Source: Anaerolineales bacterium | Lineage (GTDB): Bacteria > Chloroflexota > Anaerolineae > Anaerolineales > Villigracilaceae | Length of the DNA stretch: 64,000 nucleotides | Assembly: GCA_014379595.1 (NCBI GenBank) | Contig: JACMLM010000020.1 | Coordinates: forward strand, 1-64,000 | Direction of reading: 5' to 3' | In this document: piece after piece, positions 6,671-63,999 of the stretch | How positions within the stretch are numbered: the first letter of the stretch is position 1 | How the letters are laid out: each line of letters begins with the position of its first letter | Translations under genes and position numbers: made by a program | Notes under the pieces: generated by a model | What the model was told of the DNA's origin: nothing | Database searches by the model: none | The model's input: only the letters and a program-made list of their open reading frames with translations

Positions 6671-8041
6671 ATGATTATTTCAGCTAAACAAATTATTCCT
6701 GCCTGTTTACTTGCACTTACATCATGCCAAATGCAAACCCAACAGATAGAAATATTGCCAACACCGCAGACCTATTACGCATCGCCGAGTGAAAACAATA
6801 ACAATGCAAGCACGCAGACTTATTATGTTTCACCAATGGGAAATGATACCAATAGTGGGACACTGGTAAACCCATGGAGGACGATTAAAAACGCAACAGC
6901 AAATGCCATAGCTAATAGCCTAATCATTGTTCGTGAGGGAATATATTCTGATGGTAACGAATTTGCAAATCATGGAGTTACAATAAAAAATTACCCTGGA
7001 GAACAGGTAGTTATTCGATTGATTACAGGTGATGGCTACCGCGCTTTTGACTGCTATACAGACCGGGCAAGAACCGATATTCACATTATTGGATCTGATG
7101 TAACACCGAAAATATTATCTAACGGGGTGGTCAGTCAAAAAGGGATAGTTATTCAGGGAGAGGTTGGCACAAAGTGGGCAGGCTTCGTTCCACACGGTGG
7201 ATGTGATCGTTGGGAAATAGCGGGGATAGATTTTGTTGATGTAGGGCATGGTATTTTTCAACTTAAAGAAACTTATTCGAAAACCGGGAATCTGAGTGCT
7301 GACAATTGGTATGTACATGATAACCGAGTTTATGGATATTACCGAGAGACTGGCATGCAATTCAATGGGAATGAGAATATTGTTGAGAACAACGAGATCG
7401 TAAAAGCTACCCCTCGACTGGAAACACCCTATGGTTGTTATTTAATTAATCTATTAGGCCACGGTAATATTGTTCGCAACAATATTCTAACAGGAACAGG
7501 GGGAACAGAGTGTAATGGCATCCTATTTGAATGGAGTCAGTCTGATGCTAATTTGATTGAAGACAATATAATCACAGGCGTTCCAACAGGTATCAGGTTT
7601 CAAGGAGGGGACAATAATATAATCAAAAATAATACTATAATTGGTGTAAACCCTGCTGCTTCTGGTTATAATGGAATGGATAGAGCGGGAATAGAAATAT
7701 TTTCGTATTATGACGCAGAAAACAATTGGCCTTGCGACGATTATCTCGATTCGCCAAGTTTCGACGGAGCCACAATACCCCCAAATGACTCCAGTCACAT
7801 TGATTTTCCCTACTATTATCCACATGGAGAATGTGAGTCGTTTGGAAATCAGATTATTGGAAATACTATTTCTGGATTTACCAATGGTGTAATGATCGTC
7901 AATGGTCCACCCACCATCGGAACTACTGTCATAATTGACAACATTATAACAGGCTGGGCAAGGGCCAAAGTATGTAACTATTCACAAACAGGTTGTAGCC
8001 CCTTGCCGTCAAACGTGTATTGGGATGATGGGACCAACTGA
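6671..8041 (+). CDS. Right-handed parallel beta-helix lipoprotein
   Basis: A 456-residue exported protein. The N-terminus is a short signal with lipobox LTSC, so the mature protein would be lipid-anchored at Cys19. TYYVSPMGNDTNSGT and PWRTIKNA form the DUF1565-like cap seen on pectate-lyase-fold proteins. The rest is a run of N-rich coils such as NIVENNEI, GNIVRNNIL and NNIIKNNTI, typical of PbH1 repeats. The fold binds or cleaves polysaccharide; no lyase catalytic set is identifiable, so binding, epimerase or lyase activity are all open. It is the only plus-strand gene within the polysaccharide locus and starts at ATG after AAGGA. Confidence 0.85.
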   Translation: MIISAKQIIPACLLALTSCQMQTQQIEILPTPQTYYASPSENNNNASTQTYYVSPMGNDTNSGTLVNPWRTIKNATANAIANSLIIVREGIYSDGNEFANHGVTIKNYPGEQVVIRLITGDGYRAFDCYTDRARTDIHIIGSDVTPKILSNGVVSQKGIVIQGEVGTKWAGFVPHGGCDRWEIAGIDFVDVGHGIFQLKETYSKTGNLSADNWYVHDNRVYGYYRETGMQFNGNENIVENNEIVKATPRLETPYGCYLINLLGHGNIVRNNILTGTGGTECNGILFEWSQSDANLIEDNIITGVPTGIRFQGGDNNIIKNNTIIGVNPAASGYNGMDRAGIEIFSYYDAENNWPCDDYLDSPSFDGATIPPNDSSHIDFPYYYPHGECESFGNQIIGNTISGFTNGVMIVNGPPTIGTTVIIDNIITGWARAKVCNYSQTGCSPLPSNVYWDDGTN

Positions 8042-8109: not shown

Positions 8110-9309
8110 TTAAAGCACCGGCATGTCTATAACCAATTCCCCATCTATTAGTGATATAGTTGTCATGCTGCTATTATTTTCTTTCCTTATTGATTCATTA
8201 AGAATTAAACGGCTTTGCCACCATTTTGCTACATCGCGCGGTAGTGCATGCCAATATCCGTTACGTTTCTTCATTGCAAGTAGAAATTCATGGTATACAT
8301 CCCAAGTTGCTTTTTTAGCCAGATAATCCGGATGTGAATTGAGTAATGCCATGCCATGATATTTTTCAAGAAATTCAACTTTTTCAAGCCATAGCCTTGA
8401 AGTTTTCTCACCTAATACGGATGTTAAAGTATAGTCCTGAATAAGCGTGTAGGGTAATTCAACAAAATGACCCAAAAAGAAGGGCCACAAACTCATTGTC
8501 CCACCAGGAATAGGCTCATAGGGGTCGGTGTCAAAAAAGGAAAGATCATACTCAATATCTAAAATCTGCATCCACTCTGGATGACGATGTGTTAAAGGGG
8601 CCCGAAAACCGACTGCATCAAAAGTTTTCATATATCTATTAATCAATTTTGCACGACGCTCAAATTCATCCCATGAACCAAATAATTTGCCATCATGCTT
8701 TAATCCATGAATGCCAACTTCAAAACCTCTTTCTTTCAACTCACCTACCAAAGATTGGTCAATTGGATATCTTTCGGGAACAAAATTAAAGGATGAACGA
8801 AACCCCAAACTTTCTTCCAAATCTGCGACCTTGCGGACAAAATTTTGGCCATACTTTGTTTCTATATCATGCGTAAGGACAAATGCAAATCGATTCGCGG
8901 CAGGCCAAAAAGGAGTAAATGCTATAGAAGTTTGACTAGTCAGAATCAGGACTTGTCTACCTACCTCCCACAAAAACAGTGCATATCTTTCTTCAATTGG
9001 CCAATTCAAAGAAAAACTACCTTTCGCCAAGGGTTGGTATAACTTGCGCATGACTTGAATCAAGGGTCGAGGGATAATAGGCTTTAAATTATAGTACTGG
9101 CGTTTTAGTAGACCAAGACTCCAGTGGTCTTCTCCAAATTGTCCTTCACCTAATACAAGTTGTAATATATCGTCAATATTTTCTGTCTCGCAAGTAATAC
9201 CCAAAGCTGGTATTGCCTGTTTAATTGCTCTTTTCCAAATTGGTTCGGGTATTTCATCTACAAAACCCCAAAAATTTAGTGGGTTATTATGGGAAAATAA
9301 ATCTCTCAT
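8110..9309 (-). CDS. Polysaccharide deacetylase-like protein
   Basis: A 399-residue protein whose centre matches the NodB/CE4 fold: VLTHDIETKYG replaces the usual TFDDG motif, GIHGLKHDG gives the HxxxH metal pair, and GFRAPLTHRHPEWM resembles the RxPY motif. It may remove acetyl groups from amino sugars, but the altered first motif makes this less certain than for the second deacetylase near 16 kb. The first 120 residues are an extra domain of unknown role. No signal peptide is visible. ATG follows GGAGG; the start overlaps the PHP gene stop by four bases (ATGA), so the two are translationally coupled. Confidence 0.8.
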   Translation of the reverse strand: MRDLFSHNNPLNFWGFVDEIPEPIWKRAIKQAIPALGITCETENIDDILQLVLGEGQFGEDHWSLGLLKRQYYNLKPIIPRPLIQVMRKLYQPLAKGSFSLNWPIEERYALFLWEVGRQVLILTSQTSIAFTPFWPAANRFAFVLTHDIETKYGQNFVRKVADLEESLGFRSSFNFVPERYPIDQSLVGELKERGFEVGIHGLKHDGKLFGSWDEFERRAKLINRYMKTFDAVGFRAPLTHRHPEWMQILDIEYDLSFFDTDPYEPIPGGTMSLWPFFLGHFVELPYTLIQDYTLTSVLGEKTSRLWLEKVEFLEKYHGMALLNSHPDYLAKKATWDVYHEFLLAMKKRNGYWHALPRDVAKWWQSRLILNESIRKENNSSMTTISLIDGELVIDMPVL

Positions 9310-17972: not shown

Positions 17973-19238
17973 TTATATTCTCTCTTGAGTTTTATTGATA
18001 TTACTGGCAACCAACACCCTTTGAAAGTATTCCAAGTTTTGATCAACAATATGTTCTAATGTGTATCGTTCGTGTATGGTGTTAATTCCTGCAATACGAA
18101 TCTTCTGAGTAAGCTCATCACTTTGAAGCAACTTCATAATAGCCGCTGAAAATGCAGCTGGGTCATCGACCGAAACAAGTAAACCATTCTCGCCATCATT
18201 AATAATTTCTAGTGGCCCACCACGTCGGGATGCGATAACCGGTAGACCCCGAGCCATAGCTTCTAATACAGTTCCACCTAGAGGCTCGACCCAGCGAGAC
18301 GGAAACAAAAGCGCGTCATAATCTGAATATAAATCCAGGACCGCAGAATGATCTAACCATCCCACAAATCTTACGTTCTTTTCGAGTTTCAATTTAAAAA
18401 CCAAATTTTTAAGACTTGAGATATATTCCTTTGATCCTTGACCTACAATATCCAATTTAATATCACATAATCCATACTCTGTACTTAGGTTATCCAGTGC
18501 ATTAATTGCCACATCTGGCGCTTTATTTGGGTGGAGGCGACCAACAAAAAGCAATTTCATATGGCCATTGCGATCTCGAGGCATTTTGCCCAATGCCTTA
18601 GTTGAAAGAATCAAGTTAGCTTGGACCCCCCTTGAGATCACATGGAAATTTTTTTCAGGAAATCCATTTTCAATATAGGTGTTTTTAAGCACTATGCTAT
18701 TGGGAAGTAAATTACTTAATTCTAATTGAGAGAAATCTCCCAAACCAGTAATCATAGCTCTAAATTTTTTCTTTATATAGTTAGTATCATCAGATAATTC
18801 AGCTTTTAAACTCAATAACCAATAATCTCCGATACTAAATACCGTTGGAATGCTAAAATCCTGTGCAGCTAAGATAGGAGTAGGGCTTATATTTCCCATA
18901 TTCCAGATAAAAACCAAGTCAGGCTGTATGGTAGCTATTAATTTAGCAGTAATCTGGTAATTCTTACGGCTTTTAAATGCCCACTGAAATTGATAATATC
19001 GCCTACGCAGGCGAAAAGGATCTTTAATCGTAAGTTTATCTAGATTAGTCGTGGTATTAAAAAACAATAATCGATAAATATTTCCTTGAATTTGAGAGCT
19101 TTCGCCTCCCTGCCTGCTTGTAAGTATAAAGATATCATGTCCTCGTCGGCTCAATTCATCTGCAGTTTCTTTACACCTGAGTTCATATCCGCCATTAACA
19201 TGGGGCGGATATAAATCTGTAACAATCAAAATTCTCAT
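17973..19238 (-). CDS. Glycosyltransferase family 4
   Basis: A 421-residue GT4. RILIVTDLYPPHVNGGYE is the N-terminal loop; LLFVGRLHPNKAPDVAINAL and ALLFPSRWVEPLGGTVLEAMARG form the donor site with E(x)7E. The ATG overlaps the flippase stop by four bases (ATGA), which selects it over another ATG five codons upstream and shows translational coupling. The role is addition of one sugar to the repeat unit on the cytoplasmic side, just before export by the coupled flippase. Confidence 0.9.
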   Translation of the reverse strand: MRILIVTDLYPPHVNGGYELRCKETADELSRRGHDIFILTSRQGGESSQIQGNIYRLLFFNTTTNLDKLTIKDPFRLRRRYYQFQWAFKSRKNYQITAKLIATIQPDLVFIWNMGNISPTPILAAQDFSIPTVFSIGDYWLLSLKAELSDDTNYIKKKFRAMITGLGDFSQLELSNLLPNSIVLKNTYIENGFPEKNFHVISRGVQANLILSTKALGKMPRDRNGHMKLLFVGRLHPNKAPDVAINALDNLSTEYGLCDIKLDIVGQGSKEYISSLKNLVFKLKLEKNVRFVGWLDHSAVLDLYSDYDALLFPSRWVEPLGGTVLEAMARGLPVIASRRGGPLEIINDGENGLLVSVDDPAAFSAAIMKLLQSDELTQKIRIAGINTIHERYTLEHIVDQNLEYFQRVLVASNINKTQERI

Positions 19239-20722
19239 GATCGAGATAACCACAATCCAAATTTATGAAGTGGGGGCCAGGATGATATTCCTGAGCCGTC
19301 CACTAAAAAAGCGATGTCTCTCTTAGTAACTATTGAAAGAAAAACACAAGCGCATATAAAAGTAATAAGAAAAGCAATCTTCATAATTAAAAATTCCGGT
19401 TTTATTACGAAAACAAGTGCGCTCCATATACAAAAAAGGATTAATGGCTTCAAATAAGGTGCATCCTGCAGATTAATTCTTTTACGTAAGAAATATCGAT
19501 TTAAAGGGAACCCAATAGCGGTACCAAAAGTATTTGCAATGCTTGCACCAACAAGCCCAAAGGTGGGAATCAGAAGAATACTACCCAACCAACTTGCAAT
19601 TGCATTAAAAAAATTGATAATGGGAGGTTTTTGCGTATCCCCTACAGCTACCAGAGTAGTTCCCATAACATTACTAATTAATGCAATACTTAAATTTAAC
19701 ATAAGCAGTACAAATATTGGTGCACTGGATGAATATTTTTGCGTAAAGATAAATTGAAGGATTTCCTTGCCAAACAAGGTTGTAATTACTACACCAAGCA
19801 GAGTGACAAACGCAACAAAACGTATTGAATCGTTCATAAATGCAGCTGCTTGATGGGGCTCATCTAGAGAATAGCGCTTTGAGATCACCGGATAATAGAC
19901 AGATTTAAAAGGTTCATACAAATTCCGAAGATAATCCGGGATTTTTCTAGCAACTTCATAAGTAGCGATATCGACCGGGCCGAAGAATACCGCAACTGCA
20001 ATCGTATCGATCCGGCTATATATAAAACCCAAAATATCATTAATCTGTAGTGGATATCCGAACTTCATCAACTCCTTAAAGGCTCCCATCTGAAACGAGA
20101 TATATTTCCTAATTGGAATAGAAACAAACGCAAAAATACATGCTAGAAAAGATGAAAGGATCCTTGCAAGAATCAGCAAAGTGAAATCACCGTTTATTGA
20201 GATAATAATTATCACTAAAATAAGATATATAGAGCTCGCAAAAGAATCAGCAATTCCGATTTTTGAGAACGAGAAACTTCCTTGTAAAGTTGCCCTTAAT
20301 AAAGATCTAAGACTCTCAACTGCAAATAACATAGGAACATAAAGGATAAAACCAGGCAACAAAGATTGGCCAAATAATGTTTTTATTAAAGGGCTACCAT
20401 ACCAAGCTAGCAAGCTTGTTATAAGAATAGAGACTATCCTTATAATAACTGCTGTACTAAAAAAGTGTTGTCTGCTAAGTTCATCTTTGGCGCCTGCGAT
20501 GAATTTGGAAACGGACAGCTCCAAACCGAAAGTGCTAATCTGGCTTAAAAAAGATGCGAACACCATAACAAGGGTATAAATACCAAACTCTTCTGCCAAA
20601 AAATGGCGGGTTATTAAGATAGTGCCAGTTAAGCCCAACAACATAATAAAAATACTAACCACACCAAGCGAGATGGTGCTTGAAATAACACGTGGGCTTG
20701 AAGAGCCAGGTGTTGTGTTCAA
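19235..20722 (-). CDS. wzx: Wzx-type polysaccharide flippase
   Basis: About 495 residues and twelve or more hydrophobic segments, with the MATE/MOP oligosaccharide-flippase pattern: early ILITRHFLAEEFGIYTLVM, then GFIYSRIDTIAVAVFFGP in the middle, and FGTAIGFPLNRYFLRKRI near the end. It would flip the undecaprenyl-linked repeat unit across the membrane. The best start is TTG: it overlaps the polymerase stop as TTGA and has AGAGGA six bases upstream. A longer frame reaching 33 codons further would lie inside the polymerase gene and lacks an SD. Coupled downstream to a GT4 by ATGA. Confidence 0.88.
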   Translation of the reverse strand: MNTTPGSSSPRVISSTISLGVVSIFIMLLGLTGTILITRHFLAEEFGIYTLVMVFASFLSQISTFGLELSVSKFIAGAKDELSRQHFFSTAVIIRIVSILITSLLAWYGSPLIKTLFGQSLLPGFILYVPMLFAVESLRSLLRATLQGSFSFSKIGIADSFASSIYLILVIIIISINGDFTLLILARILSSFLACIFAFVSIPIRKYISFQMGAFKELMKFGYPLQINDILGFIYSRIDTIAVAVFFGPVDIATYEVARKIPDYLRNLYEPFKSVYYPVISKRYSLDEPHQAAAFMNDSIRFVAFVTLLGVVITTLFGKEILQFIFTQKYSSSAPIFVLLMLNLSIALISNVMGTTLVAVGDTQKPPIINFFNAIASWLGSILLIPTFGLVGASIANTFGTAIGFPLNRYFLRKRINLQDAPYLKPLILFCIWSALVFVIKPEFLIMKIAFLITFICACVFLSIVTKRDIAFLVDGSGISSWPPLHKFGLWLSRS

Positions 20723-22209
20723 CTCAATTCCTCTAATATTTGCGAATCTGTAAATTGATTGTTGTTCATTCTTAAAATAATTTCGCCTATACTTAGCATG
20801 ATGCCAATAACTGGGGCCCAATAAGAAGCTCTAATAATAGGGTTTACAATAGATGCAATCAGTACGCCAACAATCGCAGCTGCGAAAGAAAGTACGATCC
20901 CTTTTAGGAATGGGTCAGAGATCTGCTTCCAATTTTGAAGTGCACGCTTAAGGAAGAGCAGAAAAAACCACATGAAAAACAAATACCCTACTAACCCCGT
21001 TTTTACCATCACCCAGAAATGGCCGTTGTGTATATAGTAAGTAAGCCTTGTCGTAAATGACCCATAATCAATACGGGAATCCCAGGGTCGATAATTTGCT
21101 CCGAGCCCTAAGCCAAAGAGCGGATGCGAAACAATCTGAGAATAAACATACTCGTTCTCAACATAACGGTATACTAAGCTGTCTTCTTGTGCAGTATCGG
21201 GATTAAACAATGTGGAAAATCTTGTTGACATACCATTGATCAGTGTACCAACTTGTTTCCCGTTCAAGATTAGTATTGGCGCAAAAAAAACAGCGCCAAT
21301 CAGAACTGCCCAAAATATGGTCTGGACATACTTTATCTTATCGCGTATTGAAACTAGAAAACCCACAATGAATAAGGCCAAGATAGATGCAATCCAGAAA
21401 CTACGATTGAACGTTAATATAACAGAGAGACCAATAATACCTAATTGAATTAAGCTTACAATAAATCGTGGTGACGTTCGATTTTGAATCATTAGGACCG
21501 TCAAAGAAATAAAAGCAATCAGTACTAGAGCCTGGCCCGGGGGAAGGATTCTTGTAGTGCCATAAGAATTTACTCCTGCTGTATTTAATGTCTCTACCCG
21601 CCCTGGCAATATGGAAACCGAATCTCCCAGTATATACTGAGCAATCATTGCCATGGCCACAAGAGTTGCGAGCAGAAAAATGCCTGCCAACAATCGCCGC
21701 AATTGTTTTTCATTGCGAATAAGATTAGTGACTATAAAAAAAATTAGATAAAAATTGATCGTTCTTACCTCTCCCAGACTCTGATTAAACGTCACCGAGG
21801 AATTGAAGATACCAATTGCAGTAGCTAGTATTGCCGTGATATAAAAGGCAAGAAGTGGCCGATCAACAGGAGTATGTATTAAATAAGAGGATGATTTAAT
21901 CAGAACGTGAAGAAGAACTATTCCGAGCAAGGCGAATAAAAGAATATCAGAGATTATTAAGTTACCAACACCTATTGGAATCGATGGATAGGCATATATA
22001 TCAAAAATAGTTGACGTAAACAACAGGATACCCAGAATGGCGATCTCGGGCCACAACCATGCAACCACTAAATAGACGATTCCAGCAATTCCGATGAGCA
22101 AGAAGTAAGGCGGAAGCCATATACTAGTTATTCCTAGAAGTAAACCAAGCCCAAAGACTAAAATCATCTGGTTTGGAATTGACGGCTGTTTCAATAATTG
22201 GTTTTGCAT
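20719..22209 (-). CDS. wzy: O-antigen polymerase/ligase-like membrane protein (Wzy)
   Basis: A 496-residue protein with about twelve hydrophobic segments and the O-antigen ligase/polymerase signature: an external loop with HPLFGLGLGANYRPWDSR and a YIHNGHFWVMVKTGLVGYL segment, matching the conserved HNxxL(x)xxxGxxG pattern. In a Wzx/Wzy pathway it joins repeat units on the outer face. Next to wzx and with a separate initiating transferase, Wzy is more likely than WaaL. ATG with AAGGAG eight bases upstream. A gap of 277 bases separates it from the aminotransferase upstream; no promoter with both hexamers was found there. Confidence 0.87.
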   Translation of the reverse strand: MQNQLLKQPSIPNQMILVFGLGLLLGITSIWLPPYFLLIGIAGIVYLVVAWLWPEIAILGILLFTSTIFDIYAYPSIPIGVGNLIISDILLFALLGIVLLHVLIKSSSYLIHTPVDRPLLAFYITAILATAIGIFNSSVTFNQSLGEVRTINFYLIFFIVTNLIRNEKQLRRLLAGIFLLATLVAMAMIAQYILGDSVSILPGRVETLNTAGVNSYGTTRILPPGQALVLIAFISLTVLMIQNRTSPRFIVSLIQLGIIGLSVILTFNRSFWIASILALFIVGFLVSIRDKIKYVQTIFWAVLIGAVFFAPILILNGKQVGTLINGMSTRFSTLFNPDTAQEDSLVYRYVENEYVYSQIVSHPLFGLGLGANYRPWDSRIDYGSFTTRLTYYIHNGHFWVMVKTGLVGYLFFMWFFLLFLKRALQNWKQISDPFLKGIVLSFAAAIVGVLIASIVNPIIRASYWAPVIGIMLSIGEIILRMNNNQFTDSQILEELS

Positions 22210-25124: not shown

Positions 25125-25874
25125 TTAATGTGCGCCCTTTGCAGCAAAGACTACAAGAGGCGTTTTTAATATAATCTCGATGTCAAGCCACAGAGATTGT
25201 TTTTCAATATATTGGATATCCAGCCGCATTTGATTGTCAAAATCAATAGTAGAACGTGCAGTGACCTGTTGTAAACCAGTAATACCAGGCTGAGCTTCCA
25301 GTCGTTGCATATACCACGGCTCATATAATTCAACTTCATAAGGGATTGCAGGTCTAGGACCCACAAGACTCATATCACCTCTCAAAACATTCCAAAACTG
25401 TGGAAGTTCGTCAAGACTGAATTTACGCAAGAACTTTCCGGGACGTGTAATTCTTGGGTCTCGCACTAGTTTCCGAATGTTAGAGGTCTGACCTTGCAGA
25501 GCATCCATTTGTTTTTGATCGTTTTCAATTAATGCTTGAATATATGCCTGATGAATTGCAGGGTCCGCATTTATTCTCATAGTCCGAAACTTATAACATG
25601 GAAACGTTACCTTCTGCCAATAAGAGTATTTCCCGCGCACTTGCCTTTTTGCACCCACTCGCTCCTGCACAAAAAATACTGGGCCTGGAGAATATAAAAA
25701 AATTGTCAAAGCAATCAGCAACATCAAAGGTAAAAAAAACACCAGTAACACTAAAGCTATCGTAAAATCCATCACGCGCTTTACGGCATAATAAACGTTG
25801 CGATCCGCAGATATCAGGCGCAGTGCAGACGGATCATATTTACGGATTAAATCCAGTTGAGCTTCGTTTTGCAT
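25125..25874 (-). CDS. Initiating polyprenyl-phosphate sugar-1-phosphate transferase
   Basis: A 249-residue bacterial sugar transferase of the short type: one hydrophobic segment near residues 35-60, then [30 protein letters not shown] and [13 protein letters not shown], the full set of family motifs. It loads the first sugar phosphate onto undecaprenyl phosphate and so begins repeat-unit synthesis. A TTG two codons upstream is an alternative start; the AAGGA lies four bases from the TTG and ten from the ATG. It follows the BcsB-like gene by 85 bases. Confidence 0.94.
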
Positions 25875-25959
25875 ATGCAATAAATCCTTGTAATCCAGTA
25901 ACGAATGAAATCTTTCATTCTCAATCAGAGATAATATATACTTGCCAAAAGTTCAGTTG

Positions 25960-28356
25960 CTATTTGTCTTTTTGACTATTTTTCGCTTTCTCAAAAAATG
26001 CTGCAAGCCATTTTTTAATTGAGCTAAAATACCCATGTTTGCCAGGTTGATGACCTTCTCCTTGTACAACACCACGTGTTCTATTGCGCAACCAACTTCC
26101 AATGGTTACAACTGCCGAGATTAATATTATTAATATAATTGAAGCCACAAACACTGGAAGCACCCAAGTTGACTCTCGAACAACAGGTGAAGGAGAATTT
26201 TCGTCCACATTTGGTGGTATTACAGCAACTTCAGAAATTGGTGTAGGCGCAGAATTAATCGCTGGCGACAAACGTGTGTCAGTAGTGATTATTTGTTTGT
26301 CGTTGATCATAGCAAAATTGCCAGCTAACTGCGACCGCAGGTTGGAATCAATTAAAGCCGATGTTGCCCAACTTAATCCTTGTACTGTATTCCCAAGAAC
26401 TGCCAATATAACGTTATCAGGATTCCAAGGAGAAGGCAGTATCTCCACATAACCTATTGGGGCATCAGGCGGGATACGATAGGTAACCTGAAAATTCCCA
26501 TCAGCAAGAACATCGCTTCCATCCAAGAATGATATAGGTAGGTCTTTATTTATTTCACCGATAATAGGCAATTGGCTAGGTCGGCCAATTACCAACAAAT
26601 TGTATTTGGATCTTTCTGCTTCGGGCAGGTTATCACCATAATATACATTTAGCGCGGTAATAGGGCCTTTTGCAGTAGTACCTAAAAAGGCGGCTATTTT
26701 TACAGCAGCTCTCCAAGACTCTAAGTCATTATGCATCAACACAAACGCAGTATTGTCTAATAAAGGATAATAGGTAAAAGGCGCCGGATAAGAAGCCAGG
26801 CCCAAACTTGCTGATGGGTTAATTAATGCAAGATCAAGAGGCAGATGGAGTGTTGAATCTGGCCATATATTTAACCATACTCCGCGCATGTTTTGAGGTG
26901 AGCAAACATCTTGTGGCTCAAGATTAACTCTTACCTCCAACCGATTATTGCCAGGCACAACTGCAGAGACTGGAATATTTATGAGAACCTTGTTAGTTGA
27001 AATACTAGCCGAAGAGTCGCTCAGACGAACACTTCCTATTGGATTTCCATTGAGCACAATAACAATCCCCGAACTGGCATAATCAAGTAATGCTGAATGT
27101 CCAAAAACAAGTTCAAAACTCGAATCCGAAGCGGCGATCCACCCAGGAGGCACATTAAAATTATATGCCACGCTTCTAACTCCGCGGCTCTCGAACAACC
27201 GACCTTTATAGCCCATCGCAGTCAACGTTTGATCCGTTGGTTGAGGTACCAATACTGGAGTGGTTTTAACTTCATTAACAACTGCAAGATTCGGGGATTG
27301 ATTGGGTTGAAAAACACCAGTGCTTACGGCCTGAGCAGCCTTAATCGTTCCTTGGTCGGTGTTGCCGGATACAATCAATATTACATTTGAATTGTTCCAA
27401 GGGGAACTAACCATCTCAACAAAACCATCATCAACACTTCCATCCAAGACTTGGAATTGGCCCTCACTTATAGGCAAAGTGAGTTGAAATTGTTCCATAA
27501 CAGGTAAAGAAGCAGAATTACCAATAAATATTAAATGGCTTGCCGTTTTCAGTTCAGTAGTTAACTTACCAAGGGTTACCATATCAAATACCAAAGAACC
27601 ATCACCTAATTTACCCAGTCCAGACGCCACAGTTAACGCCGCTTGAAGTTCAGCTGCTGATGGCTGATCTGGGATGACCAAGAGGACCGAATCTGGAATA
27701 AATGAATTTTGAAAAATTGGGTATGGAAAACTTACCAAATTCGTGGCAGGTTGTGTGGAATTGTGAGGTAAAGTGAAATATGAAGATGTACGAACCACTA
27801 CATTCATCTGATCAAAATTATAACAAGACGTACCAGTATTGAGGATAAGGCCCACTTCCACCAAGCCATCAATATTAGCTGAAGAGAACGCATCAACCGG
27901 GATTGGGATGGTTTTCACTACTTCACCAACCTGATCAAGCGGCAAAATAGCTAGTGCAGTATCATTTATCATTACGGTAAGTGTCCCTGCTCCTATAAAC
28001 CCAGCAGGAATTTGATCTTGATTATTAGCTGTAGAATCGGATTGATCTTGGATACCGGCAGTTACAGCGACACCAAGAGATAAATTAAGGGATGCACCTT
28101 CGATTAATTTCCAAGTTGCGGGTAGCATAAATGAAAAATAAATCGCATCATCAGGTCCAACAAGATGGGTCTCTCCAAGCTCGAGCATCTCCCAGGTAAC
28201 AACACTTGGATCTGGCGTTTGACTAAAAGGTTTCTGCTCTGAAATTGCAGTTTTGAAAAACTGGATGCCTTGAGCCTTAATTGAATCAGTTAATCCAAAT
28301 AAAAGGCTCGTGCATAGTGCTAAAATTAAAAATAATTTAAGGAATCGCTGATTCAT
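25960..28356 (-). CDS. BcsB-like exported membrane-anchored protein
   Basis: A 798-residue protein with an N-terminal signal segment, a long external part and one hydrophobic helix near the C-terminus (LPVFVASIILIILISAVVTI) followed by a basic tail. The external part shows the cellulose-synthase-subunit-B pattern: FSFMLPATWKLIEGASLNL, YFTLPHN, repeated VSSPWNNSNVILIVSG and LPSPWNPDNVILAVLG, and internal near-repeats like the CBD/flavodoxin-like pairs of BcsB. BcsB guides glucan out of BcsA, but no BcsA-like synthase is in this window, so this copy probably serves the Wzx/Wzy polymer or pairs with a synthase elsewhere. The start has GGAG eight bases upstream. Confidence 0.8.
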   Translation of the reverse strand: MNQRFLKLFLILALCTSLLFGLTDSIKAQGIQFFKTAISEQKPFSQTPDPSVVTWEMLELGETHLVGPDDAIYFSFMLPATWKLIEGASLNLSLGVAVTAGIQDQSDSTANNQDQIPAGFIGAGTLTVMINDTALAILPLDQVGEVVKTIPIPVDAFSSANIDGLVEVGLILNTGTSCYNFDQMNVVVRTSSYFTLPHNSTQPATNLVSFPYPIFQNSFIPDSVLLVIPDQPSAAELQAALTVASGLGKLGDGSLVFDMVTLGKLTTELKTASHLIFIGNSASLPVMEQFQLTLPISEGQFQVLDGSVDDGFVEMVSSPWNNSNVILIVSGNTDQGTIKAAQAVSTGVFQPNQSPNLAVVNEVKTTPVLVPQPTDQTLTAMGYKGRLFESRGVRSVAYNFNVPPGWIAASDSSFELVFGHSALLDYASSGIVIVLNGNPIGSVRLSDSSASISTNKVLINIPVSAVVPGNNRLEVRVNLEPQDVCSPQNMRGVWLNIWPDSTLHLPLDLALINPSASLGLASYPAPFTYYPLLDNTAFVLMHNDLESWRAAVKIAAFLGTTAKGPITALNVYYGDNLPEAERSKYNLLVIGRPSQLPIIGEINKDLPISFLDGSDVLADGNFQVTYRIPPDAPIGYVEILPSPWNPDNVILAVLGNTVQGLSWATSALIDSNLRSQLAGNFAMINDKQIITTDTRLSPAINSAPTPISEVAVIPPNVDENSPSPVVRESTWVLPVFVASIILIILISAVVTIGSWLRNRTRGVVQGEGHQPGKHGYFSSIKKWLAAFFEKAKNSQKDK

Positions 28357-28750
28357 AATATATTCTCCACAAGACTTCAAGCAAAAGCAAATTAGAAAAA
28401 CGGTTCTTTGAACACTTTTAACAAGAAGCCAATGACAATAGCTTTACCGATATGATATTTTTAGCCAATGATATATCAAAAACCCGACAATAATAAAGAA
28501 TGTGCTAATAAATAAGATACCTTATTTAGTCTTTGAATTATTTTTCAATTTTTAAACAGAAATAGCATTTAGGTTTATAAATTCATTTAAATTTATATTT
28601 AAAAAAAACCCGAGTTAAGACACCTTACAGTTTTGTGAGGCAGTACAATTCTAATGTAATTCGCAGAAAAGTCAATAGGTTAATTTGATAATTTAGTGGC
28701 TATATTAGGCAAGTTAGCGTTCCCTATTTTTAATTTTAATCAAACCGGCA
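28357..28750. other. Intergenic leader region, 394 bases, no gene seen
   Basis: AT-rich spacer between the Wzz-GGDEF gene and the BcsB-like gene. It contains the promoter at 28.65 kb and, downstream of it, a leader of about 290 bases before the BcsB-like start. A run of eight T (minus strand, near 28600-28607) follows a short weak dyad and could act as an attenuator; I do not see a clear riboswitch consensus. Confidence 0.45.
28648..28675 (-). promoter_or_regulatory. Sigma70-type promoter of the BcsB-like/sugar transferase operon
   Basis: On the minus strand: -35 TTGACT, 16-base spacer ending AATTACAT, -10 TAGAAT. It is the sister of the promoter at 2.95 kb: both have CTATTGACTTT, the same spacer length and the same AATTACATTA before and into the -10. 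The shared spacer bases are more than sigma70 needs, so they may be bound by a common regulator or reflect duplication. Confidence 0.75.
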
Positions 28751-29887
28751 TTACGTACTATCTAGATTCTTTTGCGCCCAAAACGGGCTTTTCATTTCCC
28801 AGACATATACAGGAACTTCATTATCCCTTCGGGCCTGCTCTAACGCACTATTAGCCTTTTCAAATAATTCTTGAACAGTAATATGGTTACCATATTCAGC
28901 ACCGCCTATGTGAGCATCAAGATTCACAACTATATTAAATTGATCCAATTTAACTGGTTCTGAAAGTGCCTGGAAAATTCGTTCGAAAATTCGATTGGCT
29001 GCCACGCCTGGCGTATTTGGAAGCATAACGATAAAGCTATTACCATTCCAACGGCCAATAATGTCATTACCGCGTAATTCCTTCCGCAAAAACTCAGTTA
29101 CCCTTTGTAGAATCCTTTGCAGGGCCACAATCGGAAAAGTGTCTACAATATCTCGCAGGCCATTCAACTCGACAATACCTATGGAAAGCACTTCGTTAGG
29201 TTGTCTCGCTAACTCATCCTCTACCCATCGGGAAAAGTATTTTTTAGTGTATACACCAGTTTCGTTATCTAGATGAACACGCTGACGAAAAGTCTCCAAC
29301 GAAGCGCGAAGTTGCTCACGCACAAACACAAAACCCAAACCACCTATTACTCCAAGGATAATTGCCAAAGCAGCATTTCGCAATGGTTGAGGACTGGACG
29401 GAATGGTAGTTGGAACTGCTAGATCTAGAAAGTCTAAATTAATAACCTGATTTAAACGGCGAGTAAAATCAATTGTCTGATACCCTACAGCATTTGCTAT
29501 CTCAGCAGCTAGTTGAGGATCTGGTCCGGTTACAGTTAATTCCAAAATACTCGAACCGGGAAGCACAGCCGACTCATAAGAATAATCCTTTATATCTTCA
29601 GGTTGAAGTTGTAAAAAAGAAAGGGCATCATCATAAATTCTATTGCTATTCATTACCTCAGCATAAGTCTCCATAACCGACTGATTCGCAACAGTGGAGA
29701 GGCCCTGCAACACAGTATTCGGACTTGCTTCGATAGCGCCTGGACTAATGATAAATCGAGCTAATACTTCATATTGGGGAGTAACTAGAAAGGATGCCCC
29801 TAACGAGACTGTAAGAGCAACTAAAGCTGTTAAAGCCACCACCCACCATCCACGTCTTAACATTTGTAAGTAAAGATTTAATTCCAT
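28751..29887 (-). CDS. Wzz-type polysaccharide co-polymerase fused to a degenerate GGDEF domain with an intact I-site
   Basis: A 378-residue fusion. Residues 1-190 are a Wzz domain: membrane helix 13-35, periplasmic-type region with PQYEVLARFIISPG, a Pro-rich stretch PTTIPSSPQPLRN (159-171) and membrane helix 172-190. Residues about 206-365 follow the GGDEF fold (NETGVYTKKYFSRWVEDEL, ALEQARRDN). The catalytic GG(D/E)EF is NGNSF (281-285) and the DxDxFKxxND stretch is VELNGLRDIVD, so cyclase activity should be lost. However, RGND (272-275) lies exactly five residues before it, the canonical position of the RxxD inhibitory site that binds c-di-GMP. I infer a c-di-GMP-sensing chain-length regulator. 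It is the first gene of the locus. Confidence 0.9.
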   Translation of the reverse strand: MELNLYLQMLRRGWWVVALTALVALTVSLGASFLVTPQYEVLARFIISPGAIEASPNTVLQGLSTVANQSVMETYAEVMNSNRIYDDALSFLQLQPEDIKDYSYESAVLPGSSILELTVTGPDPQLAAEIANAVGYQTIDFTRRLNQVINLDFLDLAVPTTIPSSPQPLRNAALAIILGVIGGLGFVFVREQLRASLETFRQRVHLDNETGVYTKKYFSRWVEDELARQPNEVLSIGIVELNGLRDIVDTFPIVALQRILQRVTEFLRKELRGNDIIGRWNGNSFIVMLPNTPGVAANRIFERIFQALSEPVKLDQFNIVVNLDAHIGGAEYGNHITVQELFEKANSALEQARRDNEVPVYVWEMKSPFWAQKNLDST

Positions 29888-29919
29888 ATCTCGCCATCCA
29901 AGTTTTAATATCGGGTAAA

Positions 29920-29951
29920 ATTGGAAATATTATATCAATAATATTTCCAAT
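29920..29951. promoter_or_regulatory. Perfect 13-bp inverted repeat in a divergent control region
   Basis: Arms ATTGGAAATATTA and TAATATTTCCAAT with a six-base centre. It lies about 33 bases before the Wzz-GGDEF start. Two TATAAT-like sequences for the minus strand (near 29966-29983) lie just upstream, which places the repeat in the early transcribed region of that gene. It could be an operator or an RNA hairpin; the AT-rich arms and lack of a T-tract argue against a terminator. Confidence 0.6.
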
Positions 29952-30037
29952 AAAAAATACGTAAAATTATATACAAGATTATACACTACGCTTTGCATAA
30001 TTGTTAGTTGCAAAAATATTGTGATAAGGAGAACTTG

Positions 30038-31249
30038 ATGCTCGAATCCCCAGCTCTTTTTTCGCTAAAGCCCCCTACTATCACCGTTTATAGCACTGCA
30101 TGGTGCCCGGATTGTAAGCAGGCAAAGAAATTCTTTGGTGAGCATCGGGTGGAATATGTAAATGTAGATATAGAAGAAATCCCTGAAGGCGTAGCTTTTG
30201 TGGAAAATCTCAATAAAGGAATGCGGATTATACCCACCATTATCTTCCCTGACGGTGAAATTTTGGTTGAACCGTCAAATGCTCAATTGGCTGAAAAGCT
30301 TGGGCTTCAGACAAAAGCTGAACGAGAGTATTATGATGTGATCATCATTGGCGGCGGACCAGCAGGTTTAACTGCTGCTTTTTATCTTGCTCGTGAAGGA
30401 TTGGATGCCCTTGTGATCGAAAAAGCTGGCCTAGGTGGACAGGCAGGTATTACCCAAACTCTTGATAATTTTCCTGGTTTTGACGAAGGCATTTCTGGGG
30501 CTGAATTCGCAGATCGTTTAAGTAGACAGGCTCGCAAATTCGGGGTGGAAATTCTACAGGCACAAGAAGTGACCGAGGTTGAAGAAGACGGGCAGTATCA
30601 TGTAGTCCATACCAGTTCAGGGCATCATTATCACAGCAAAGCTGTTCTTCTCACGTCAGGTGCACGATATCGCCGCATGGATATTCCCGGTGAAGATGAA
30701 CTGATCGGTATAAATGTCCATTTTTGTGCAACTTGTGACGGTGCATTTTATAGAGGAAAAAAAGTGCTTGTAGTAGGCGGCGGAAATAGCGGTTTTGAAG
30801 AAGGGCTGTTCCTTACCAAATTCGCGACACAAGTTGATATTATTGTAAACTCCAAAGAACCAAAAGCAAGTAAAATCGTTCAAGATAAAGTGGCTGAAAA
30901 AGAAAATATGCATGTTCTACTTAATCACAGCATAAAAGAATTGCGCGGTAAAAATAAGCTTGACTCTGTGCTGGTTGAAGATAAAAATACAAAAGAGGAT
31001 AAAGAGCTCAACTATGATGGTGTCTTTGTCTTTATTGGGCTCACTCCCAACAATAATCTTTTGAAAGATAAAGCTAATCTCGACCAGTGGGGCTTTGTTA
31101 AGACGGAATATATGATGACCAGCATTCCAGGCATTTTCTCAGCAGGAGATGTACGATCGGGTGCGACCAAGCAGGCTGCTGCGGCGACAGGAGAAGGCGC
31201 ATCTGCGGCTTTGGCAATACGAGAATATCTAAAATTAATTGGCGCATAA
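30038..31249 (+). CDS. trxB: Glutaredoxin-like domain fused to thioredoxin reductase
   Basis: A 403-residue fusion. Residues 13-90 form a glutaredoxin/mycoredoxin-like domain with active site CPDC (23-26) and the cis-Pro loop RIIPTIIF. Residues 98-403 are a low-molecular-weight thioredoxin reductase: FAD loop GGGPAG (105-110), redox-active CATC (230-233), NADPH loop GGGNSG (247-252) and the C-terminal FSAGDVR. The reductase would pass electrons from NADPH through FAD to the fused or the next-encoded glutaredoxin. ATG with AAGGAG six bases upstream; an in-frame TTG ten codons earlier is rejected. It is divergent from the polysaccharide locus. Confidence 0.93.
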   Translation: MLESPALFSLKPPTITVYSTAWCPDCKQAKKFFGEHRVEYVNVDIEEIPEGVAFVENLNKGMRIIPTIIFPDGEILVEPSNAQLAEKLGLQTKAEREYYDVIIIGGGPAGLTAAFYLAREGLDALVIEKAGLGGQAGITQTLDNFPGFDEGISGAEFADRLSRQARKFGVEILQAQEVTEVEEDGQYHVVHTSSGHHYHSKAVLLTSGARYRRMDIPGEDELIGINVHFCATCDGAFYRGKKVLVVGGGNSGFEEGLFLTKFATQVDIIVNSKEPKASKIVQDKVAEKENMHVLLNHSIKELRGKNKLDSVLVEDKNTKEDKELNYDGVFVFIGLTPNNNLLKDKANLDQWGFVKTEYMMTSIPGIFSAGDVRSGATKQAAAATGEGASAALAIREYLKLIGA

Positions 31250-52364: not shown

Positions 52365-53582
52365 TTAGGTCTTATCTTTTCGTAGCGCAAATTGGACTTG
52401 GTTGCGTCCGTTTTGTTTGGCTTGATAGAGCGCATGGTCTGCGAGAGACATCAGTTCTTCATTGGATGTTCCATCTTGGGGGTAGACAGAGCCGCCAATG
52501 GAAATGGTTACGCGGATAGTTCTACCCTTGTCGTTGATGGTTTGCAATGCAACCAGTGTCCGTAGGACCTCAGCTCGAGCGTGACCATCTATGGCTTTCA
52601 TACCCGGGAAAACAAGTGTGAACTCCTCACCACCATAACGGCAAACAATATCACCGGCGCGCACATTTGTACTCAGAGTTCTCGCAACTGTCTGAAGGAC
52701 GGTATCGCCGACTTGATGCCCATACGTATCGTTGATGTTTTTGAAGTGATCAATATCGAGCATGAGGATGGTGAGCGGAGTACCAGCACGCTTCGAGCGG
52801 GAGAGTTCGATCACGAGCATTTCATCCAGATGACGACGATTGAAGAGGCCTGTGAGAGGGTCGCGGATGGCCTCCTCACGCAGCTTTGCCTGTAATGCAT
52901 TAATGCGCTCAAACTGAAGTGTGAGCTGCTGATTGGCAAGATCCAGTTCGGAGGTACGCTCTTCGACACGCACTTCCAGGGCAGCACGTAATTCCAGCAG
53001 TTCCCGGTTGGCTTCGACCTGTGCGGCTTCGTTTTGTTGAGCAATCCGAATGGCGCGATTAAGACGGAGCACCATATAATTCAAACCAAAGGTTGTACCC
53101 AATAGGAAGAAAGCGGTGGTGGTAATCGTGGGGCGTTCTGTGAGCGGACCAAAGCGAGTGGAGATGATGCCGCTTGTTTCAGCCAAGCCGATCACGACCA
53201 CAGCCATGGCGCTCATGAGTCCAAATGTCAGCAATGCGCGCTGCCCGATCATAAGGCCCGCAATGATCAATATAAGGTAATAGCCGCCGAGTGCATCATC
53301 GTGGATGCCACCGCCAAAGAGCAGGCGGGTGATGAGAATGAAACCTGCCAGGGGAGTAATGACCCGTGCGGGCCAAAGCTGGTTCTTATAAGCGAAAGCT
53401 AGTGAAATGAGAAGAAGGGTAATAAAGACAAGGAACGCATATATACCCACTGCTGTAATCGTGAGGGGTGAACTGACCAGCACAACGACCAGAGCAATGA
53501 TAATAAAGGAGATATACAGCCTGCGCTGATCTTCGTGTTCGTTGCCAGATTTATCCAGAAAGCGAAAAATATGTTTAAACAT
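52365..53582 (-). CDS. Membrane diguanylate cyclase
   Basis: A 405-residue protein. About six membrane helices in residues 22-170, a coiled coil about 180-235 (EVRVEERTSELDLANQQL), then a GGDEF domain: DPLTGLFNRR, LDIDHFKNINDTYGH, and the catalytic GGEEF at 317-321. RAGD (308-311) lies five residues before it, so the product-inhibition site is present. It should make c-di-GMP from two GTP. Its signal is unknown; the helix bundle has no recognised ligand domain. Genes around it are not obviously linked, but the Wzz-GGDEF protein of this window is a plausible target. Confidence 0.92.
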   Translation of the reverse strand: MFKHIFRFLDKSGNEHEDQRRLYISFIIIALVVVLVSSPLTITAVGIYAFLVFITLLLISLAFAYKNQLWPARVITPLAGFILITRLLFGGGIHDDALGGYYLILIIAGLMIGQRALLTFGLMSAMAVVVIGLAETSGIISTRFGPLTERPTITTTAFFLLGTTFGLNYMVLRLNRAIRIAQQNEAAQVEANRELLELRAALEVRVEERTSELDLANQQLTLQFERINALQAKLREEAIRDPLTGLFNRRHLDEMLVIELSRSKRAGTPLTILMLDIDHFKNINDTYGHQVGDTVLQTVARTLSTNVRAGDIVCRYGGEEFTLVFPGMKAIDGHARAEVLRTLVALQTINDKGRTIRVTISIGGSVYPQDGTSNEELMSLADHALYQAKQNGRNQVQFALRKDKT

Positions 53583-62334: not shown

Positions 62335-63999
62335 TCACTGTTTTGAAAATGATTCGTTTATCAGGTCTTGTGCGGTTTGGCCGTCCAGTGCTTTATTGAA
62401 GAGAAAGCCCTGACCATAGTCGCATTCCAGGCTAATGAGATTGTTCATTTGCTCTTCGGTCTCGATGCCTTCGGCAATGACCTTCATGCCGAGGCTGTTG
62501 GCCATGGCGATGATGGCACGGATGATGGGAACTCCGCTCTTGCTGATGCCAAGTGTGCTGATAAATGAACGATCTATTTTGAGATTGTTGACGGGCAAAC
62601 GCCTCAGATAGCCAAGAGACGAGTAGCCTGTGCCGAAGTCGTCGATCTCGACCCCCACGCCTAATGTTTGTAAATGTTCAATTTTAGTGACTGCTGATTC
62701 GATATCTTCAATGAGCGTGGTCTCTGTTAATTCCAATAGCAGGCTTCTAGCCGGCAGACCAGTTTGCTGCAAAACGGTGGTGATCTGCGTTGCCAGCTCG
62801 GGATGAGCGAACTGGCGGCTGGAAAGATTGACGCTGATGGTAAGAGGAAACTCCATGTTGAACTGGTTGTGCCACTGCTGCATTTGATGACAAGCCTCGT
62901 ACAGCACCCATTGACCGATGGGCACGATCAGCCCGGACTCTTCTGCAGATTTGATGAAGTCTGCCGGGTAGAGCAAGCCTCGTTCGGGGTGCTGCCAGCG
63001 TAACAAAGCTTCGAAGCCGGTGATCCGCTTTGGGTGTAGGGAAAGAATCGGCTGATAATGAAGCATGAATTCCCCATGCCGAAGCGCATTGCGCAGGCCG
63101 TTTTCCAGTTTCAAAACGTGCGCCGCCTCTTCCCGCATTAAGACATCGAATACTTTATAGCGGTTCTTGCCGCTCACTTTTGCGCTGTACATGGCGATAT
63201 CGGCATCACGCAGAATATCATCGAGGTGTTCATATCGAAGCAGGTCCATCACAATGCCAATGCTGGCGGTCATGACAATAGAATTTCCTTCCACTTCAAA
63301 CGGAGCAGACAGACTCTCCTGCAGGCGCTGGACGATAAGCAAGACTTCCTCATTGTTTTTAAAACCTTCGAGCAAGATGGCGAATTCATCACCGCCGAGG
63401 CGAGCTACTACATCTACCGAGCGCACCACGATGATCAAGCGCTGTGCCAGGCCTAAAAGTATTTGGTCTCCAATATTATGACCAAGGCTGTCATTGATGA
63501 CTTTGAAGCGGTCAAAATCGAGATAGACCACTGCGAACAGATCGTTGGGATGGCGTTTGTTCCATTCGATGGCATGCTCGAGCCGGTTGACAAACATTCT
63601 GCGATTAGGCAGGTTGGTGAGCGGGTCGTGCAGCGCTTCGTGAGTCAAACGTCCCTCGGCCTGTACTCGTTTATCCATTTCCTCCTGCAACTCTTCGGCC
63701 TGCTTATTGACTCGATCAAGCAGCGCCCTGATCCAGGCAGTGCCCATGCCCACCAACGTAAAGGCGAAGCTGCCTACCATGGCAGGCACAATATCATAGA
63801 CAGTGCCTCCTACCAGGCGCAAAAGAAAATTGTGCAAGGGAACGGTGAGAATTCCCAACAGCAAACTGCCGCGTATGCCAAGCAGCCACCCCGCCACAGC
63901 CATAGGGACAACGATGAATGCCGCCGTGGCCTCGCCACCCACTGGATACAGGATGGGGAAAATGATCGCATACAGGGTTATGCTTCCAAGAACGATCAT
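62335..63999 (-). CDS. GGDEF-EAL membrane protein, possibly cut by the window edge
   Basis: 554 residues are visible. Membrane helices lie in about 1-90 with a coiled coil to 115. The GGDEF domain has GGDEF at 202-206 and RSVD (193-196) as I-site. The EAL domain has FEALLRW (EAL 330-332), NLSSRQF (391-397), Glu423 in ELTET, DDFGTGYSSL (453-462), Lys474 and Glu510, so the phosphodiesterase set looks complete. Either activity, or both, may be used; EAL activity usually dominates when intact. The ATG at the extreme right edge may not be the true start. Confidence 0.9.
   Translation of the reverse strand: MIVLGSITLYAIIFPILYPVGGEATAAFIVVPMAVAGWLLGIRGSLLLGILTVPLHNFLLRLVGGTVYDIVPAMVGSFAFTLVGMGTAWIRALLDRVNKQAEELQEEMDKRVQAEGRLTHEALHDPLTNLPNRRMFVNRLEHAIEWNKRHPNDLFAVVYLDFDRFKVINDSLGHNIGDQILLGLAQRLIIVVRSVDVVARLGGDEFAILLEGFKNNEEVLLIVQRLQESLSAPFEVEGNSIVMTASIGIVMDLLRYEHLDDILRDADIAMYSAKVSGKNRYKVFDVLMREEAAHVLKLENGLRNALRHGEFMLHYQPILSLHPKRITGFEALLRWQHPERGLLYPADFIKSAEESGLIVPIGQWVLYEACHQMQQWHNQFNMEFPLTISVNLSSRQFAHPELATQITTVLQQTGLPARSLLLELTETTLIEDIESAVTKIEHLQTLGVGVEIDDFGTGYSSLGYLRRLPVNNLKIDRSFISTLGISKSGVPIIRAIIAMANSLGMKVIAEGIETEEQMNNLISLECDYGQGFLFNKALDGQTAQDLINESFSKQ

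Follow-up and report, generated by a model that had tools for sequence, protein, structure and literature searches.

A degenerate GGDEF domain fused to a Wzz co-polymerase in Chloroflexota: a candidate c-di-GMP receptor in Wzx/Wzy-type polysaccharide loci

Introduction

Can the co-polymerase of a Wzx/Wzy-type polysaccharide pathway carry its own receptor for cyclic dimeric guanosine monophosphate (c-di-GMP)? The question is raised by a gene at positions 28751..29887 (minus strand) of the window analysed here, the first 64,000 nucleotides of contig JACMLM010000020.1 (assembly GCA_014379595.1) of an Anaerolineales bacterium in the phylum Chloroflexota. The gene encodes a 378-residue protein with an ATG start, in which a Wzz domain is followed by a GGDEF-fold domain. 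A first-pass annotation, made from the sequence alone, had described the GGDEF domain as having lost catalysis while keeping the c-di-GMP-binding I-site. The analyses presented here favour, with a rough probability of two in three, the reading that this Wzz-GGDEF fusion is a Wzx/Wzy-pathway co-polymerase, closest to the kinase-less, CpsC/CapA-like polysaccharide co-polymerases (PCP) of class 2b, whose tail is a catalytically dead GGDEF receptor for c-di-GMP that replaces kinase control.

A Wzz domain and a GGDEF domain in one frame

Profile searches and structure modelling upheld the annotated architecture, i.e. a Wzz-type domain, two membrane helices, a proline-rich segment and a GGDEF fold in the same frame. 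The protein matched Pfam Wzz (PF02706) over residues 6-89 (29621..29872, minus strand; E 1.4e-9, 38.5 bits against a cut-off of 25.5) and Pfam GGDEF over residues 205-355 (28823..29275, minus strand; E 1.2e-17, above the curated cut-off). The minus strand had been left unstated in the annotation, and the opposite, plus strand over the same open reading frame (ORF) is full of stops. A search for relatives yielded 73 ORFs that counted as full-length (starting no later than model position 60 and ending no earlier than 300), of which 61 were distinct, the window's included, with none nested in another; hits without a fetched locus (e.g. G407 and the second G258 copy), partial hits and Wzz-only hits were excluded. 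Alignment A2 contains 54 of these 61 sequences, of which 53 match Pfam Wzz (E 0.001) and 53 match Pfam GGDEF, so that at least 52 carry both domains; the fusion is therefore not an assembly error, a possibility that the annotation itself had raised.

The layout expected of a PCP of the Wzz type is present, comprising a first transmembrane helix (TM1, a hydrophobic model helix at residues 14-34, called by eye), a periplasmic domain and a second transmembrane helix (TM2, likewise hydrophobic by eye on the model) with its proline-rich and glycine motifs. The prolines before TM2 are widely conserved in the family (P163 in 57 of 61 sequences, P166 in 60), as are the glycines within it (G179 in 60, G183 in 58). 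An AlphaFold2 model built from alignment A2 (mean predicted local distance difference test score, pLDDT, 85.4; predicted template modelling score, pTM, 0.52) places the hydrophobic helix 14-34 first, then a mixed alpha/beta part, and then an unbroken helix leading into the GGDEF fold. This helix, TM2 and its continuation, is predicted as a single element spanning residues 168-205 (29273..29386, minus strand). Residues 202-366 superpose on c-di-GMP-bound PleD (1w25) by VIA-align with Z 23.6 and a root-mean-square deviation of 2.0 A over 164 residues; the VIA-align rows cover about residues 166-367 only, i.e. the GGDEF side, outside the Wzz fold.

Among established subfamilies, the NCBIfam model TIGR01006 (CpsC, PCP-2b) scored 58.1 bits over residues 6-193 against a cut-off of 296, which indicates by sequence that the Wzz half is related to the CpsC subfamily and is not a member of it. 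The Pfam GNVR match was weak and below its cut-off. The NCBIfam tyrosine-kinase model PRK09841 matched weakly (23 bits) and over residues 148-223 only, and no kinase catalytic domain was found in the protein with Pfam, so that it lacks the fused bacterial tyrosine kinase (BY-kinase) that marks PCP-2a Wzc proteins. Nor is the protein a PelD: PelD and GAF gave no Pfam match at E 1, and the transmembrane helices number two, not four.

The catalytic site is lost and the I-site is kept

Judged by sequence, loss of catalysis, including loss of the first metal Asp, extends to the whole family. The former GG[D/E]EF motif reads NGNSF in the window protein (residues 281-285, 29033..29047, minus strand); GG[D/E]EF occurs in 0/61 full-length sequences, among which 41 variants of the five-residue motif are seen. 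At positions equivalent to the catalytic residues of PleD, set by offset and in agreement with an alignment to DgcR, the canonical residue is retained in 0/61 sequences for D327, 0/61 for N335 and 4/61 (Asp) for D344, while the E370 position is acidic (Asp or Glu) in 6/61 and the E371 position is Glu in 1/61.

The I-site presents the opposite pattern. R272-G-N-D275 (29063..29074, minus strand) stands five residues, IIGRW, before NGNSF, as the annotation had numbered it, and there was no random loss of RxxD among homologues: the Arg is present in 57/61 sequences, the Asp in 60/61 and both in 56/61. Site rates estimated for 156 GGDEF-domain positions across the 61 sequences placed R272 first (0.25) and D275 second (0.26) among the slowest, compared with ranks of 88, 148, 52 and 139 for the positions of D327, N335, D344 and E370. 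Ten further positions have rates of 0.26-0.27, within 0.02 of R272, and the I-site pair is thus as slow as the slowest of the core, not far beyond it. R272 is written with all six Arg codons across the family, and the arginine is therefore kept by selection rather than by slow change of the DNA. A third I-site arginine, R303 (28979..28981, minus strand; rank 23, Arg in 48/61), lies 28 residues past D275, which is the spacing between D362 and R390 described for PleD in PMC7288161. The fusion consequently lacks the marks of an active diguanylate cyclase (GG[D/E]EF, the metal Asp, guanine-binding residues) and has those of a degenerate-GGDEF receptor of the PelD, PssE and YdaK kind, namely a dead active site preceded by RxxD, with a further Arg downstream.

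Distribution of the fusion

Genomes were sampled from Chloroflexota and from the phylum of Massilia. All genome tallies are lower bounds; for the class and phylum samples the threshold was E 1e-30, and no more than five candidates were scored in each genome. Matches spanning both halves were found in at least 27 of 61 genomes among the relatives, at least 29 of 396 genomes sampled evenly across the class and at least 19 of 400 in a sample of the phylum, with some genomes common to the class and phylum samples. Named contigs, in which only close relatives were findable, added ten loci. Nine held full fusions under the labels Anaerolineae, Anaerolineales, Anaerolinea or Chloroflexi, three of them on contigs that appear to overlap genomes already counted; in the tenth, from Massilia, the GGDEF part alone matches. 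No fusion was found in 349 genomes of Massilia's phylum at E 1e-28 (again with scoring limited to five candidates in each genome), a result not used as evidence of absence. From these sequence matches, the Wzz-GGDEF fusion is recognised as a Chloroflexota family.

Plasmids gave 175 matching records, of which only one covers at least 80% of the query. This is the 212-kb plasmid of Leptolinea sp. HRD-7 (AP024711.1), which carries a polysaccharide locus with the fusion hrd7_33270; both the fusion and the BcsB-like gene of this plasmid are annotated as hypothetical.

Genomic context

The fusion gene heads a minus-strand run and lies in a Wzx/Wzy-type polysaccharide locus. It is followed by genes for a BcsB-like protein (25960..28380), a priming sugar transferase (Pfam Bac_transf, 25125..25880), a Gfo/Idh protein, a hexapeptide transferase, a DegT aminotransferase, a Wzy_C-type polymerase/ligase (Pfam, 20719..22209) and a Wzx-type flippase (Pfam Polysacc_synt, 19235..20821), all on the minus strand. 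Beyond Wzx, down to position 8110, are further ORFs that resemble glycosyltransferases and sugar enzymes by eye, and a plus-strand ORF at 6671-8041 ends the run.

The same setting recurred in a survey of 46 loci, the window included, a non-random set dominated by top-scoring loci, many of them from a single genus, in which contig ends make the counts lower bounds. Left out were the Wzz-only locus L157 and three loci on the same contigs as L064, L067 and L070. Wzy-like genes were present in at least 36 loci, BcsB-like in at least 35, priming transferases in at least 30 and Wzx in at least 29, and glycosyltransferase genes also surround the fusion in many loci. The next gene downstream is always on the same strand, encoding Wzy in 23 loci, BcsB in 19 and another protein in four.

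A BcsB-like protein was thus observed in Wzx/Wzy-type loci in the window and 34 others. CelA/BcsA was found above its curated cut-off in none of 20 genomes searched; weaker matches occurred in nine of the 20, including one of 198 bits on another contig of the window genome, and a partner synthase for the BcsB-like protein may lie elsewhere in the genome.

The fusion gene and its BcsB-like neighbour are separated by an AT-rich gap of 370 bp (28381-28750). Rfam searches at gathering scores found nothing but a tRNA in the window, and there was no match at E 1 or better in 28300-30100; a c-di-GMP riboswitch near the fusion gene, considered as a candidate, was rejected for want of any Rfam match. 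Promoter-like sites (7 against 6.5 in shuffles) and terminator-like sites (1 against 1.2) showed no excess over chance. The two genes may be co-transcribed across the gap.

The window genome contains 31 GGDEF matches and three PilZ matches above cut-off, from which it is predicted to be able to make and sense c-di-GMP by other means. Intact-motif GGDEF domains elsewhere in the window, at 52398-52871 and 63160-63636 (minus strand), are possible sources of c-di-GMP. A second polysaccharide locus of this genome (L157) encodes a Wzz protein without a GGDEF domain (L157:9669-10307), which shares 31% identity with the fusion's Wzz half.

Tyrosine kinases

In PMC12220298, regulation of PCP-2 proteins is attributed to an autophosphorylating tyrosine kinase domain. 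No BY-kinase (TIGR01007) scored above cut-off in the window genome, which is 95% complete; there were eight weaker matches, the best at 54 bits against a cut-off of 108. A BY-kinase match at E 1e-25 was present in 25 of the 38 other genomes that have the fusion (above cut-off in 22), giving 46 matches in total. Three of these share a contig with the fusion (one in G021 and two in G544, both one-contig chromosomes) at a distance of at least 0.6 Mb, and the other 43 are on other contigs. Within the limits of the contigs, there was no BY-kinase near the fusion gene in any of the 39 genomes checked, and the tyrosine kinases of these genomes appear to serve other loci.

A second membrane protein with a degenerate GGDEF domain

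Many fusion loci (23 of 46) encode, upstream of the priming transferase, a second protein of about 290 residues that combines hydrophobic helices with a degenerate GGDEF domain and is referred to here as TM-GGDEF. Pfam barely detects its GGDEF domain, and a structure model (mean pLDDT 79.3) consists of a helical part and a GGDEF fold. In an alignment of 23 TM-GGDEF sequences (A3), the Arg and Asp of RxxD and an Arg 28 residues further on are each conserved in at least 90%. A wider set of 52 sequences included three repeats and hence 49 distinct members, among which the first Arg is present in 35, the Asp in 45 and the downstream Arg in 34, with 13 of the 14 first-Arg losses falling within a divergent subgroup; one neighbour, L154_5, is not a member and was left out of A3. 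The fusion and TM-GGDEF families are divergent in sequence yet occur in one type of locus and mostly retain these three residues in common, which strengthens the c-di-GMP reading of both.

TM-GGDEF is tied to the priming transferase by four sequences of the divergent subgroup in which the two are fused in frame (L154, 6365-8053, minus strand; L184; L185; L186), and in these a Tyr replaces the first I-site Arg. Examples of TM-GGDEF include those of loci L119, L149, L065 and L066 and others. That of the window genome (L157:16384-17319) lies in its second polysaccharide locus, beside the Wzz protein without a GGDEF domain. In one clade of the fusion family in which RxxD has become PGRD (L086-L089), a TM-GGDEF with RxxD still present (L147, L148, L161) was seen at three of the four loci, as if, judging by these residues, the receptor role had moved to TM-GGDEF.

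Proposed mechanism and alternative explanations

A possible mechanism is as follows. The ligand, c-di-GMP as an intercalated dimer, very probably binds R272, D275 and R303. Since PCPs assemble into rings, and GGDEF domains can be cross-linked through I-site dimers, the cytoplasmic tails would become ordered, or be rearranged, upon binding. The consequence would probably be an altered packing of the GGDEF domains of neighbouring subunits, which the TM2-linker helix would transmit to the periplasmic ring and Wzy. That the outcome is polymer length, in place of the phosphorylation cycle of Wzc/CpsD, is a tentative suggestion, and a plain on/off control of assembly is about as likely; by analogy with the dead-GGDEF receptors known from polysaccharide synthesis, binding of c-di-GMP should be activating. 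A broader scheme, which must be considered doubtful, is that Chloroflexota possess a third kind of regulated PCP-2, in which reversible cross-linking of dead GGDEF tails by c-di-GMP replaces the cycle of tyrosine phosphorylation on which ring state and polymer length depend, while TM-GGDEF acts at the priming transferase, such that one messenger would gate both initiation and polymerisation. If a kinase has indeed been swapped for an I-site receptor, the question of how a cytoplasmic module tells Wzy at what point to stop would become testable with a small, reversible ligand. Chloroflexota are common in sludge and subsurface biofilms, and the same reading would offer a handle on matrix control in this phylum.

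Several observations weigh against a c-di-GMP receptor in the tail. RxxD is usual in the GGDEF domains of the window genome, occurring in 20 of 21 that match [any]G[D/E]EF and in six of eight other aligned domains, several with altered motifs (L007, L014, L021, L025, L029, L030; absent in L028, whose motif is altered, and in L027, which matches in part and has its motif intact). RxxD in one protein therefore says little, and the evidence is the family-wide contrast between I-site and catalytic site. Within the family, the four PGRD sequences of a single clade have lost the I-site Arg, one sequence (RKET) has lost the Asp and position 303 is not Arg in 13/61. In PleD, a neighbouring domain contributes the arginine R313; at the corresponding offset the window protein has L226, and Arg occurs there in no family sequence, although an intervening loop that varies in length makes this offset uncertain. 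Residue 284 (29036-29038, minus strand), at the position of PleD E371, evolves slowly (rank 21) and is mostly Ser, Thr or Gln; because of this slow rate, the former active-site face may have taken on a different, conserved function. With a pTM of 0.52, the model does not resolve how the domains pack. With respect to the kinase, many contigs are short, and one just past an end would escape notice; Wzz-only proteins without a kinase in view also exist, so kinase absence alone does not point to c-di-GMP.

An alternative explanation is that the domain is a c-di-GMP-dependent docking site whose I-site face brings an active membrane-bound diguanylate cyclase to the polysaccharide machinery, in the way that YdaK recruits DgcK, with the Wzz half mainly an anchor. 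The many intact-motif GGDEF proteins of the window genome would suit this arrangement. However, another GGDEF protein with an intact motif was present in only one of the 46 loci (L120), i.e. the gene has no cyclase as a regular companion, although one may be encoded elsewhere, and the Wzz half is as conserved as the rest of the protein (mean site rate 0.94 against 1.02), as expected of a working co-polymerase. This explanation is considered unlikely. Alternatively, RxxD may be kept for folding or for a protein contact, binding no nucleotide, in a domain that serves as a structural spacer in place of the kinase. The frequency of RxxD in this genome's GGDEF domains, some altered ones included, the marginal difference in rate between R272/D275 and about ten core positions, and the lack of an arginine at the R313 offset are all compatible with a spacer. 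In contrast, a surface Arg-Asp pair that evolves as slowly as the core, six Arg codons and R303 at the spacing seen in PleD are what ligand binding would lead one to expect, and the sequence-divergent TM-GGDEF family of the same loci retains the three residues in most members; a spacer is quite unlikely.

Continued catalysis, or binding of GTP or ATP at the old active site, would be in keeping with the intact GGDEF fold and the slow E371 position, but is very improbable and in practice refuted by sequence, with GG, the first metal Asp and the guanine-binding Asn kept in none of the 61. An artificial joining of the two domains during assembly or annotation has a negligible chance of being correct, given that the window comes from a 72-contig assembly but nothing found supports such an error, while the homologues with both Pfam domains in one frame and the named Leptolinea plasmid record contradict it.

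Comparison with known systems

Direct control by c-di-GMP is known for cellulose, alginate and Pel. The closest receptor precedent is PelD of Pseudomonas aeruginosa and Bacillus cereus, which like the fusion is a membrane protein with a degenerate GGDEF domain, RxxD and a downstream Arg (R367/D370/R402 in the former, R363/D366/R395 in B. cereus), is needed for polysaccharide and is activated by c-di-GMP bound at the I-site, according to PMC2170427, PMC8461298 and PMC7112168. It differs in having a GAF domain and four transmembrane helices where the fusion has a Wzz module, and in serving the Pel pathway, not Wzx/Wzy. PssE of Listeria, in which five residues separate RxxD from the dead motif and the dissociation constant is 0.79 uM (PMC4125290), and YdaK of Bacillus, with four transmembrane helices (PMC7064775, PMC9800504), are likewise described as dead GGDEF domains with an I-site that act as receptors for exopolysaccharide (EPS) synthesis. 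The TM-GGDEF protein is more like PssE and YdaK than the Wzz-GGDEF fusion is. PssE has a membrane part; we know of no Wzz domain in either PssE or YdaK, and their EPS operons are of another type than the loci of the fusion. BcsE is a further precedent for a dead-GGDEF receptor in polysaccharide synthesis, but is soluble, part of cellulose secretion and not associated with a co-polymerase.

From the side of the co-polymerases, PCP-2a Wzc and PCP-2b CpsC/CpsD (CapA/CapB) share with the fusion a Wzz domain, two transmembrane helices, a cytoplasmic C-terminal regulatory module and a place in Wzy-dependent loci. The module of Wzc/CpsD is an autophosphorylating tyrosine kinase, whereas that of the fusion is a degenerate GGDEF domain with no kinase found near it. 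Alg44 is also a co-polymerase under direct c-di-GMP regulation. It carries a PilZ domain, belongs to the alginate pathway and is not known to be a Wzz protein. A 2025 review of capsule chain length (PMC12220298) treats c-di-GMP for synthase systems only and tyrosine phosphorylation as the regulator of Wzy-dependent ones, and the Wzz protein of PMC5532660 is itself a tyrosine kinase, with the GGDEF protein encoded by a separate gene. The annotation's claim that no such arrangement had been described agrees with full-text searches of the open-access literature, which misses most subscription journals; these turned up no Wzz co-polymerase with a fused GGDEF receptor. Each half is known in its own right, and what is new, within the open-access literature, is the fusion as an architecture for a degenerate-GGDEF receptor and as a regulatory module for a PCP.
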